64,000 bases of DNA from Natrinema versiforme (lineage in GTDB: Archaea > Halobacteriota > Halobacteria > Halobacteriales > Natrialbaceae), in contig NZ_CP040330.1 in the NCBI RefSeq assembly GCF_005576615.1, positions 558,001 to 622,000 of the forward strand, given 5' to 3'. The translations under genes and the position numbers were made by a program. The notes under the pieces were generated by a model. It worked only from the letters and a program-made list of their open reading frames with translations, did no database searches and was not told where the DNA came from. Each line of letters opens with the position of its first letter. The first letter of the stretch is position 1. Below are positions 41,341 through 43,906 of the stretch, piece by piece.

Positions 41341-41661
41341 AGACACACCGGCCTTACAAGTGAACCGGACCGGGACACACCACGGTTGCATGTGAAGGCT
41401 GCCCGACCCTCGAGTCCCGGTTCCCAACGGGACCACAGACACCACTCTTTCATGTGAACAGTCAACACTGCCGCTGCGATCGATCCCTGACAGCGGGTTG
41501 GCCGAGATCTCTCGGGGAGAACAAGGTGTGATGGCGGTGTACGGCTAGAATTCGCCGCACTATGACCCCACTGATACAAGTGAACAGTGACGGTCGTCAC
41601 GACGCCGTCACCGAGGACGGTATCGTGTTATCCGCCGTTCACTTGTAACGGTGGTGTGGGG
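41341..41661. other. Origin-recognition-like repeats, cluster A (downstream of orc1)
   Basis: Five copies of a TTCAC(T/A)TGNAA...GTGGTGTGT element. Four are on the minus strand (about 41341-41365, 41373-41396, 41436-41459, 41564-41585) and one is on the plus strand (41638-41661, TTCACTTGTAACGGTGGTGT). The half-palindrome TTCACNTGNAA followed by a G/T-rich tail is the layout of haloarchaeal ORB elements bound by Orc1/Cdc6. The plus copy faces the four minus copies across a stretch of about 50 bp. Confidence 0.75.
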
Positions 41662-41666
41662 CGGAC

Positions 41667-42893
41667 TCAGACGACGCCATTCATCCGCGCGATCTCCCGG
41701 ATCGTCTCGATTTCCTCGTCGAGGTAGAGCACGTCGGCCATCGCGTCCACGGCGCTCGAGAAGGGCACGTCGAGTTCGTAGCTGTAGTAGTTGCCGCGGG
41801 AGCCGCTCCGGTTTTCCTTCGCCGAGAGGATGCCGAGCATCCGGAGATCGGAGAGGTGGTTGTGGACCGACCGCTGGGCGAGGGAGTCGGTCCCCGACGA
41901 CTCACAGAGCGCTTCGTACTCCTGATAGAGTTCGCGGGTCCGGCAGGGCGTCGACTCCTTGGCGGCCTTCGAGACGACCGCCAGCAGGGCGAGTCGGCCG
42001 TGGGTCGTCAGCTCCCGCATCCCCTCCTCGACTCGCTCTTGCTCGAGTTTGGATCGTGCTTGCTCGACGTGGTGTTCCTGAATCACGTCGTCGTCGTTGT
42101 TCTCCGCGACTTCACCTGCTAGCCGGAGCAAATCGAGCGCCTGTCGGGCGCTGCCGCTGTCGCGGGCGGCGAGGGCCGCACAGAGGTTCAAAACCCCGCC
42201 GTCACAGCCGTTCTCGGTGATCGCGACCTCGGCTCGAGACTCGAGGATGTTGGTCAGTTCCGAGGCCTCGTAGGGCGGAAACTGCAGTTCGCGCTCGCAG
42301 AGCGTATCCTGGACGCGGGGATCGAGTTGCTCACGGAATTTGAAATCGTTGCTGATGCCGATGAGACCGACCTTCGTCGACTCGAGGTAGCCGTTCGACC
42401 GTGCTCGCGGCAGTTCGTACAGCAACTCGTCGCGGTCGCCGATCGAATCGATTTCGTCGAGGACGATGACGACGGTTCCGCCCAGTGCCTCGAGTTCGCT
42501 GTAGAGTTTCTTGAAGACGGTCTGTTGGGGGTAGCCGGTCGTGCTGATCTCGGCGCCGGCGGGGCGGAGCGTGTTGACCAGTTCGACCGCGACCTGATAC
42601 GACGAGTTGAGCGTCTTGCAGTTGACGCCCAGCACCGAGAGGTCGACGTCGTCGTACTCGGTGACGTCTTCCTGGAGCACGTCGAGGAGATAGTCGGTGA
42701 CGGCGGTCTTGCCGACGCCAGTGTTTCCGTAGAGAAAGACGTTGTTCGGCTCCCAGCCGTCGATGATGGGCTGGAGCGCGTCCATGTAGGCCTCGATTTC
42801 TTCGTCCCGTTCTTCGATCCGTTCGGGTTGGTACGACTCCCCCAGTGCGTCCTTGTTCCGGAAGATGTTCTGCTTCCGCTCGAACCGAGGCAT
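41667..42893 (-). CDS. orc1: Orc1/Cdc6 family replication initiator
   Basis: 408 residues. Seen: an N-terminal basic segment (FERKQNIFRNKDAL), the AAA+ domain with Walker A GNTGVGKT (56-63), Walker B VVIVLDEID (141-149), sensor-1 ISNDFKF, the initiator-specific helix region, sensor-2 SARQALDLLRLAG, and a C-terminal winged helix (TRELYQEYEALCE..., RSVHNHLSDLRMLGIL). It binds ORB repeats and loads the MCM helicase. It is bracketed by ORB-like repeats on both sides, so it is probably the cognate initiator of this origin. The promoter TATA lies at 42915-42924. Confidence 0.95.
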   Translation of the reverse strand: MPRFERKQNIFRNKDALGESYQPERIEERDEEIEAYMDALQPIIDGWEPNNVFLYGNTGVGKTAVTDYLLDVLQEDVTEYDDVDLSVLGVNCKTLNSSYQVAVELVNTLRPAGAEISTTGYPQQTVFKKLYSELEALGGTVVIVLDEIDSIGDRDELLYELPRARSNGYLESTKVGLIGISNDFKFREQLDPRVQDTLCERELQFPPYEASELTNILESRAEVAITENGCDGGVLNLCAALAARDSGSARQALDLLRLAGEVAENNDDDVIQEHHVEQARSKLEQERVEEGMRELTTHGRLALLAVVSKAAKESTPCRTRELYQEYEALCESSGTDSLAQRSVHNHLSDLRMLGILSAKENRSGSRGNYYSYELDVPFSSAVDAMADVLYLDEEIETIREIARMNGVV

Positions 42894-42914
42894 GCCCGTA
42901 TCAAGAGAGATGTA

Positions 42915-42924
42915 CTATTTAAAG
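42915..42924 (-). promoter_or_regulatory. orc1 promoter TATA element
   Basis: Minus-strand CTTTAAATAG, centred about 27 bp upstream of the orc1 ATG at 42893. The adjacent bases (42925-42940) belong to an ORB-like repeat, so initiator binding would overlap the transcription factor B site. Confidence 0.65.
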
Positions 42925-43199
42925 CCACTCTTTCATCTGATGCAAGTGAACTCAGACACACCACTCTTTCACGTGAAGACTAGTCTAGTACGAGTCGTCT
43001 AGAGAACAGTCCACTATTTCATCTAAAGCGGTGACATTTCGCTCCATCGAGAGCGAACTCGCGACAGCGCGAGTCCTCAACCGTCTCTTTTCAACGCTCT
43101 GGGTCGAAATAAAAGTCGCGACGGAACGGGCGTTCGCGGAGTCCCGTCTGTCCCACGCCCCGTCACGCTGCTTCACTTGCAACAGTGGTGTGTGTCTGT
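42925..43199. other. Origin-recognition-like repeats, cluster B (upstream of orc1)
   Basis: Minus-strand copies at about 42925-42951 (hybrid), 42953-42978 (CTTCACGTGAAAGAGTGGTG) and a partial one at 43009-43030, then a plus-strand copy at 43172-43199 (TTCACTTGCAACAGTGGTGT). Minus and plus copies face each other across about 140 bp that is less GC-rich than its surroundings (TTTCAACG, AAATAAAAG around 43090-43120), a candidate unwinding element. No gene lies in the 517-bp gap from 42894 to 43410. Confidence 0.75.
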
Positions 43200-43410: not shown

Positions 43411-43722
43411 TTACGTCGACGACTCGGTGTCCATGAGATCGCTGCGCGATACGTCGGCGGAAATCTCCGCTCCCTCGAGGCTCACGTCGACGCCGTCGTC
43501 GGTGTCCGCGACTGCGACGGTATAGCCCTGATAGGAAAACTCGAGCGAGGTGAATCCGGTCGAATCCGGAAGCGAATCGAGGAGATCGGGATCGATCGCA
43601 TCGTACAGCGGGTTCAACTCGATGGGATCGGCGTCCTCAACCTGCGCGACGAGATCGATAACGGCCATGCTGAGTTGGTCAGTTGCTGTGACGGAAACGG
43701 ATGTCGACTCGAGCGAATTCAT
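43411..43722 (-). CDS. HalOD1-domain protein
   Basis: 103 residues from the ATG at 43722. Seen: LSMAVIDLVAQVEDADPIELNPLYDAIDPDLLDSL followed by SLEFSYQGYTVAVAD, the pattern of the haloarchaeal output domain HalOD1, found alone or at the ends of signalling proteins. Its role is presumed regulatory. It has a short Thr/Ser tail. It is the last gene before the origin region. Confidence 0.85.
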   Translation of the reverse strand: MNSLESTSVSVTATDQLSMAVIDLVAQVEDADPIELNPLYDAIDPDLLDSLPDSTGFTSLEFSYQGYTVAVADTDDGVDVSLEGAEISADVSRSDLMDTESST

Positions 43723-43906
43723 AACTGCTGGTGTGGGACCGGGAGTAAAGAAGGTGTCCCAATATTTCACGCCACTGTTCCCGGAGAAAAGAACGATTCA
43801 ATACGCCGGAATAGGCGGTCGAGTGAACCTGACTGCCACCGAGTATTCCGAAGTCAGATATACGTGTTCCGATATCGCGCTTCCGATATCGGATACGGTC
43901 GAGTCG

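Follow-up and report, generated by a model that had tools for sequence, protein, structure and literature searches.

A chromosomal orc1 locus of Natrinema versiforme as a probable replicator-initiator module with its own origin recognition box

Introduction

What does an orc1 gene framed by two clusters of one repeat do in the chromosome of a haloarchaeon whose genome holds 14 matches over the cut-off to the Cdc6_C domain? The gene lies in a stretch of 64,000 nucleotides that we analysed as a whole (hereafter the window; positions 558001-622000 of a contig of 3.75 Mb) in the genome of Natrinema versiforme, 4.67 Mb in size. A first-pass annotation of the letters alone had read the gene and the repeats around it as a replication origin, possibly with its own specificity. 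The reading that we consider probable is that of a chromosomal replicator-initiator module, in which the upstream pair of origin recognition boxes (ORBs) would fire, the downstream cluster would titrate the initiator and a further copy over the TATA box would repress the initiator gene.

The orc1 product matches Pfam Cdc6_lid, Cdc6_C and AAA_22 as well as NCBIfam TIGR02928, all above cut-off, and its relatives in the PDB, 2qby and 2v1u, are solved initiators. With 408 amino acids it lies within the size and domain limits set for such proteins in PMC3528665 (more than 300 amino acids, AAA+ plus winged helix). Among named relatives, the closest locus is that of Natrinema versiforme JCM 10478, with an Orc1 of 99.8% identity. 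A virus source of the gene was rejected, the best of six phage records being only 26.7% identical.

Results

Strong and degenerate ORB copies around orc1

Seven strong copies of a 24-bp element with the consensus TTCAC[T/A/G]TGNAA..GTGGTGTG surround orc1 (Table 1), with five downstream of the gene, all but one on the minus strand, and two upstream, one on each strand. All copies were scored with a matrix built from these seven, and single positions given below are 5' ends. The nine repeats of the first-pass annotation, five downstream and four upstream, are present at its positions and on its strands, but two of the nine, those at 42950 and 43027, are degenerate (scores 12.2 and 15.1), the former consisting of a left half only. 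A tenth, degenerate copy, absent from that annotation, lies at 42941 on the minus strand (score 10.4) and overlaps the orc1 TATA box. Stray sites in the window score like the copies at 42950 and 42941 (8131 plus, 12.1; 43788 minus, 11.6), so that these two are not supported by score; conservation in relatives speaks for them. The facing strong copies bracket 53 bp downstream, matching the earlier figure of about 50 bp, and 194 bp upstream, where the earlier figure of about 140 bp is recovered (144 bp) only by counting the weak copy at 43027. The locus thus has facing pairs on both sides of orc1 among its seven strong copies, the inverted-ORB arrangement by which PMC3528665 recognizes origins. 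In the terms of the G-string criterion of the same paper, the ORB end is G/T-rich (GTGGTGTG), and GGGG is entered only by the copy at 41638.

Table 1. Features of the orc1 locus in window coordinates.
Feature	Position	Strand	Score and remarks
Strong ORB, downstream cluster, last copy	41341..41364	-	30.6
Strong ORB, downstream cluster	41373..41396	-	30.9
Strong ORB, downstream cluster	41435..41458	-	34.3
Strong facing ORB of downstream cluster, 53 bp away from copy at 41638	41561..41584	-	26.8
Strong ORB, downstream cluster, facing member	41638..41661	+	31.1
orc1/cdc6 initiator gene	41667..42893	-	408 aa with AAA+ ATPase, lid and C-terminal winged-helix domains
Degenerate composite ORB, with half-site starting at 42950 and second core at 42941	42918..42950	-	From alignment of 45 promoters; weak by score
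Inner strong ORB of upstream pair, 84 nt ahead of orc1 start codon	42954..42977	-	34.1
Interval between facing upstream ORBs, proposed initiation/unwinding zone	42978..43171		Role proposed from architecture
Weak ORB-like copy, TTTAGATGAAATAGTGGACTGTTC	43004..43027	-	15.1
Strong ORB, outer member of upstream head-to-head pair, TTCACTTGCAACAGTGGTGTGTGT	43172..43195	+	36.0; J7 primer match

The repeat is concentrated at this locus

A genome-wide search for the repeat, proposed by the first-pass annotation, returned five zero-mismatch matches of TTCANNTGNAANNGTGGTGTS in 4.67 Mb, all at the orc1 locus, and three two-mismatch matches, of which two are at the locus. The claim that the repeats occur only around orc1 therefore stands for every perfect match. 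A single one-mismatch match lies on another replicon (C3:417587-417607), distant from every Cdc6_C match and possibly an outlying Orc1 site. At three or fewer mismatches, TTCANNTGNAANNGTGGTGTS matched 37 times genome-wide compared with 15 times for a reversed control. The matrix found seven matches scoring at least 20 in the 400 kb around the locus, all at orc1, and none in one 2 Mb first-order Markov simulation (one at 18 or more). The 12 other orc-bearing stretches of the genome that were examined contained no match of at least 20; their best scored 15.2, compared with 26.8-36.0 at the orc1 locus. Because the matrix was trained on the seven copies themselves, the independent test lies in other genomes.

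The upstream pair is present in all 46 relatives

Relatives were counted if their Orc1 was at least 73% identical (73-100%) and at least 360 bp upstream and 450 bp downstream were available, with one relative per distinct protein (n = 46); these 46 are not independent of one another, least of all within Natrinema. A head-to-head ORB pair upstream of orc1 is present in all 46, and a facing pair downstream in 35. Matches of at least 20 number 292 within 700 bp of orc, whereas the 56,310 bp of orc coding sequence contain none and the 344,159 bp of farther flank only eight. The inner member of the upstream pair lies, in most relatives, between -83 and -98 relative to the start codon, and a site similar to the weak copy at 43027 is found between -200 and -110 in 17 of the 46. 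Strong downstream copies are more variable, with a mean of 3.6 and a range of 0-6.

A species-genome scan covering 36 loci gave at least four matches at a score of 14 or more in 35 of them, the exception being L043 with none. Two loci with an Orc1 of 55% identity (L039 and L042) carry a variant element beginning AACACTTG. The module occurs on chromosomes as well as plasmids (pNG500, pHTUR04, pNATPE01). Of the 40 plasmid matches listed, 12 were analysed, besides H3 and H11, which are loci L022 and L031; the element was present in all nine plasmid loci analysed that have an Orc1 74-84% identical. The locus cleanly exemplifies an origin-initiator pair that is self-contained and keeps its own recognition element, whether on the chromosomes or on the plasmids of many genera of haloarchaea.

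The orthologous locus of Natrinema sp. J7 has been cloned

A study of Natrinema sp. J7 predicted twelve oriCs and cloned seven fragments, and the locus orthologous to ours was published there as oriC7/oriC8, ARS-4 and plasmid pFJ4 (PMC5350488). The ARS-4 forward primer equals window 43171-43196 with no mismatch and corresponds to the outer ORB of the upstream pair. Applied to N. gari (L012), the primers, with zero and two mismatches, predict a product of 2204 bp; the published ARS-4 coordinates (2,211,560-2,213,764, the oriC limits plus 100 bp on each side) span 2205 bp (PMC5350488). In N. gari the start codon lies 343 bp from the primer, which would place the J7 start at 2,211,903, no more than one base from the published end of oriC7, and the 1227 bp gap between oriC7 and oriC8 is the length of orc1 including its stop codon. 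Primer match, product length and gap together identify ARS-4/pFJ4 as the orthologue of the orc1 locus, spanning both clusters. As judged from sequence, the locus is thus supported as an Orc1/ORB origin of a known kind, and the replication-origin reading of the first-pass annotation gains support from this identity and from the upstream pair found in every relative.

In effect, the autonomous-replication assay which that annotation had proposed has been carried out on the J7 orthologue. Plasmid pFJ4 transformed with (2.1 +/- 0.1) x 10^3 cfu/ug, persisted through about 100 generations in the absence of selection and could be recovered without rearrangement; on Southern blots some of it had probably integrated, and the authors call for further experiments (PMC5350488). 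Maintenance of the fragment is therefore established while autonomous firing is not cleanly proved. Plasmids with the oriC2 of Haloarcula hispanica likewise showed a tendency to integrate when the host carried that origin, a parallel to pFJ4 that is our own. The available part of the J7 paper counts 2 + 2 ORBs (Ori-Finder 2), compared with two strong copies upstream and six downstream that we find in N. gari, and in that part the element is not printed and neither a promoter copy nor titration is discussed (PMC5350488).

The interval between the upstream ORBs has an AT content of 43.8% compared with a window mean of 34%, and the mean at -260 to -100 in 45 relatives is 50.9%; a strongly AT-rich unwinding element between the upstream ORBs is lacking, which is a weak point of the origin reading. 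The GC-skew shift that the first-pass annotation expected at the locus did not appear: over the 400 kb around it, cumulative skew (-1550 at 565 kb, -1279 at 605 kb, -1339 at 645 kb) passes through a slight local high on a falling trend and wiggles without a clear turn, and we counted it neither for nor against an origin. Among the titles listed by our literature search, none is a marker-frequency study of Natrinema.

The two clusters probably differ in role

In the mechanism that we propose, the orc1 product would bind the copies of its own ORB, and the upstream head-to-head pair (42954-42977 and 43172-43195) would be the initiating origin, Orc1 opening the DNA between these copies and loading MCM. 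The upstream pair is the likelier origin since it is found in all 46 relatives, whereas 8 of the 46 have no or one strong downstream copy. The downstream cluster of five copies (41341-41661) would not be a second origin; most likely it soaks up Orc1 and so restrains firing, in the manner of oriC2D of H. hispanica.

In H. hispanica, the ORB-rich oriC2D downstream of cdc6E has no ARS activity alone, is not deletable alone and restrains the upstream oriC2, probably by titrating Cdc6E (PMC3936714). The orc1 locus is similar to oriC2-cdc6E in that the putative origin lies upstream of the initiator gene and an ORB-rich region downstream; a cluster downstream of the initiator gene, here of five strong copies (41341-41661), is one mark of the titrating type. 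The number differs, oriC2D having 11 downstream ORBs compared with five at orc1.

The downstream-poor relatives inform the proposed titration in two ways. Five of the eight (three Haladaptatus, two Haloarchaeobius) have six strong upstream copies, as if copy number mattered more than side, and the titration cluster may change sides of the gene. The remaining three (L022, L024 and L025) have only three or four strong copies in all, which argues against a fixed-number titration rule.

An ORB copy embedded in the orc1 promoter

The composite site upstream of orc1 runs into a TATA-like TTTAAA at 42918-42923, 25-30 nt before the start codon. An alignment of 45 promoters shows the half-site TTCACTTG, followed in most of them by a second core nine bases on, which merges into a TATA-like box (TTTTATA or TTTAAA) lying about 20-35 nt ahead of the start codon. 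A TATA-like box was found in 45 of the 46 relatives and the double half-site CACTTG.A..A..TG, just before or on it, in 44.

With locus-specific matrices from whose training the promoter was left out, the highest-scoring site in the 75 bp preceding the gene beat all sampled windows of orc coding sequence (taken every 40 bp as the null) for 43 of the 44 family members and for 20 of the 31 other orc genes, two rows with fewer than four training copies being left out of each set. Shuffling was less favourable: the promoter match was reached by at most 2 of 200 promoter shuffles in 28 of the 46 relatives and, among the 33 orc genes of different and more distant types, in 24, and the window's own orc1 promoter copy was matched by 2 of 200. 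That only 28 of 46 relatives pass counts against the reading of the locus that we prefer.

The most likely function of the degenerate copy over the TATA box would be to let Orc1 repress its own gene. The wider proposition, that an ORB copy forming part of the initiator gene's TATA region is a conserved autorepression switch, we regard as tentative, the balance tipping slightly against it. Among the titles and abstract openings listed by our literature search, none reports autorepression of an archaeal Orc1/Cdc6 gene, and among the papers listed by a word search none on haloarchaeal ORBs gives the half-site TTCACTTG; the available part of the H. hispanica paper mentions autoregulation only for bacterial dnaA (PMC3936714). 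If true, autorepression together with a titrating cluster on either side would resemble dnaA/datA control of bacteria in haloarchaeal Orc1 origins, and a functional promoter ORB would provide a simple, testable rule for restraining a dozen haloarchaeal initiator genes. The remaining interest of the locus lies in these two proposals, the promoter-embedded ORB and a titration cluster that may change sides.

The element goes with its Orc1 subfamily

According to the first-pass annotation, the core of the element differs from that of the textbook haloarchaeal ORB, and the origin might therefore have its own specificity linked to this Orc1. Correlation supports this: the best match in the 12 other orc-bearing stretches examined scores 15.2, several of their orc genes and other Orc1 families have other cores, and core distance tracks Orc1 distance. 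In the same genome and in relatives, those families combine a similar right half with other cores, for example AACAGCGGACATNGTGGTGTG, AACGTTTGAATCGGTGGTGT, AGCTTCGGAAACGGTGGAGTG and AACACTCGACACGGTGGGGTG, and AACAGCGGACATNGTGGTGTG also occurs beside an orc of the Natrinema versiforme genome (L047). Across 27 Orc1 clusters, Mantel r was 0.47-0.54, with none of 999 permutations as high. By domain it was 0.49 for AAA+, 0.47 for the lid and 0.54 for the winged helix, and the right half also correlates (r 0.28-0.32); as these values do not separate the domains, the assignment of core reading to one Orc1 domain was dropped. In the core table several rows are out of register (e.g. L060, L061, L036, L037 and L091), and the conservation of the right half is overstated because rows were aligned on it. 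No ORB-like consensus emerged from de novo motif finding at L017, L042, L045, L056 and L068, nor anything convincing for the genome's own orc genes L045, L048, L054 and L056. On these correlations, the element appears to go with this Orc1 subfamily as a private Orc1-ORB pairing.

Such linkage is not peculiar to the orc1 locus, having been published as a general haloarchaeal rule by Wu et al. 2012 (PMC3528665). That study treats every Cdc6 protein encoded by pNG500, pHTUR04 and H. jeotgali plasmid 2 as origin-associated (PMC3528665). Each of these three plasmids has an Orc1 80.6-81.8% identical to that of the window, exceeding the 80% that Wu et al. 2012 set as the threshold for one family (PMC3528665).

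The locus shares with oriC1 of haloarchaea the inverted ORBs beside an orc1 gene, but differs from it in lacking both the long-G-string ORB type and the conserved Orc1 by which oriC1 is recognized. Judging by ORB type, a separate oriC1-like locus is probably located at C2:1-3100, where the elements read TCCA[C/G]T[C/T]GAAAC..GGGGTGGGG and the Orc1 is about 42% identical over the aligned part.

Patchy distribution within Natrinema

Orthologues (Orc1 95-100% identical) are present in 16 of the 29 Natrinema genomes examined, that of the window included, and one further Natrinema genome has an 84% copy of the pNATPE01 type. Among nine named Natrinema-type loci, including L011, which is labelled Haloterrigena sp. 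H1, gnd flanks orc1 in eight, a HalOD1 gene in six and a gene for a 416-aa protein in seven, counted over the flank available for each locus. Of the ten neighbours tried, only the 416-aa protein has a counterpart in other genera, a 43-44% relative at two Halorubrum loci. In the tree, the Natrinema chromosomal copies form one clade (100/100), and the plasmid copy of Natrinema pellirubrum groups with Halobellus clavatus (98/88).

The syntenic site was examined in 8 of the 13 Natrinema genomes without a chromosomal orthologue. All eight have gnd and the 416-aa gene and seven have HalOD1, with no orc1 match between these neighbours. One of them (L120, genome G024), without such an orc1, carries a lone strong ORB at the syntenic site (2506-2529 minus, score 29.7), which looks like the relic of a lost origin. 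With 16 of 29 genomes having the locus and the others lacking it, Natrinema offers a natural setting for testing the effect of an extra origin.

Alternative readings of the locus

The patchy distribution also speaks for the reading of the locus as a dormant origin, a once mobile plasmid replicator that was fixed in the chromosome and keeps its Orc1 and ORBs but is silent in normal growth. The Orc1 subfamily is plasmid-borne in several genera, the Natrinema plasmid copy groups with Halobellus outside the Natrinema chromosomal clade, and the solitary ORB of L120 is what loss would leave behind. Dormant haloarchaeal origins exist, and the 14 Cdc6_C matches in the genome also weigh against the module reading that we prefer. 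Nevertheless, Orc1 is 95-100% identical across the 16 orthologues, the upstream pair is kept with all 15 distinct Orc1 proteins of the orthologue group as well as in L013, and the J7 fragment is reported to transform with high efficiency, all of which make dormancy unlikely in our view, if far from negligible.

Turning to the clusters themselves, the five strong copies downstream, compared with two upstream, and their facing pair could mark the main origin there, or both clusters might fire; J7 is indeed annotated with an oriC on each side (oriC7 and oriC8). We think this improbable, given the eight relatives nearly or wholly devoid of strong downstream copies, the constancy of the upstream pair, a downstream facing interval of only 53 bp with 35.8% AT, and the H. 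hispanica precedent of a downstream ORB-rich region without ARS activity alone (PMC3936714). That the repeats serve as operators only, with Orc1 as a transcription regulator and not an initiator, would suit the degenerate copy on the orc1 TATA box and has a precedent in an archaeal Orc1-2 described as a non-initiator transcription regulator (PMC9738581). However, a set of about ten copies that spans 1.9 kb, flanks the gene on either side and includes facing pairs has the anatomy of an origin, the J7 fragment was maintained as a plasmid at least in part, and the same module occurs on plasmids, so that we give operators alone very little credence. The replicator-initiator module, used by the cell as an origin, is thus the reading that we retain as probable.

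Further observations on single loci

Directly upstream of the putative origin, the window encodes a HalOD1-domain protein (43411-43770, minus), which matched the DdfA disk-determining model below cut-off. At L063, on pHTUR04 of Haloterrigena turkmenica, the element extends beyond 1.5 kb to either side of orc1 with 14 matches of at least 14, wider than at the other loci examined. A second group of copies, three of them scoring 27-28, lies 4.8-5.9 kb downstream of orc1 in the halophilic archaeon SHRA6 (L024), well away from where the copies normally cluster. Finally, L025 (PUOX01000009.1) is labelled as a Mollicutes bacterium and has a haloarchaeal orc1 with ORBs; it is almost certainly a mis-binned haloarchaeal contig.
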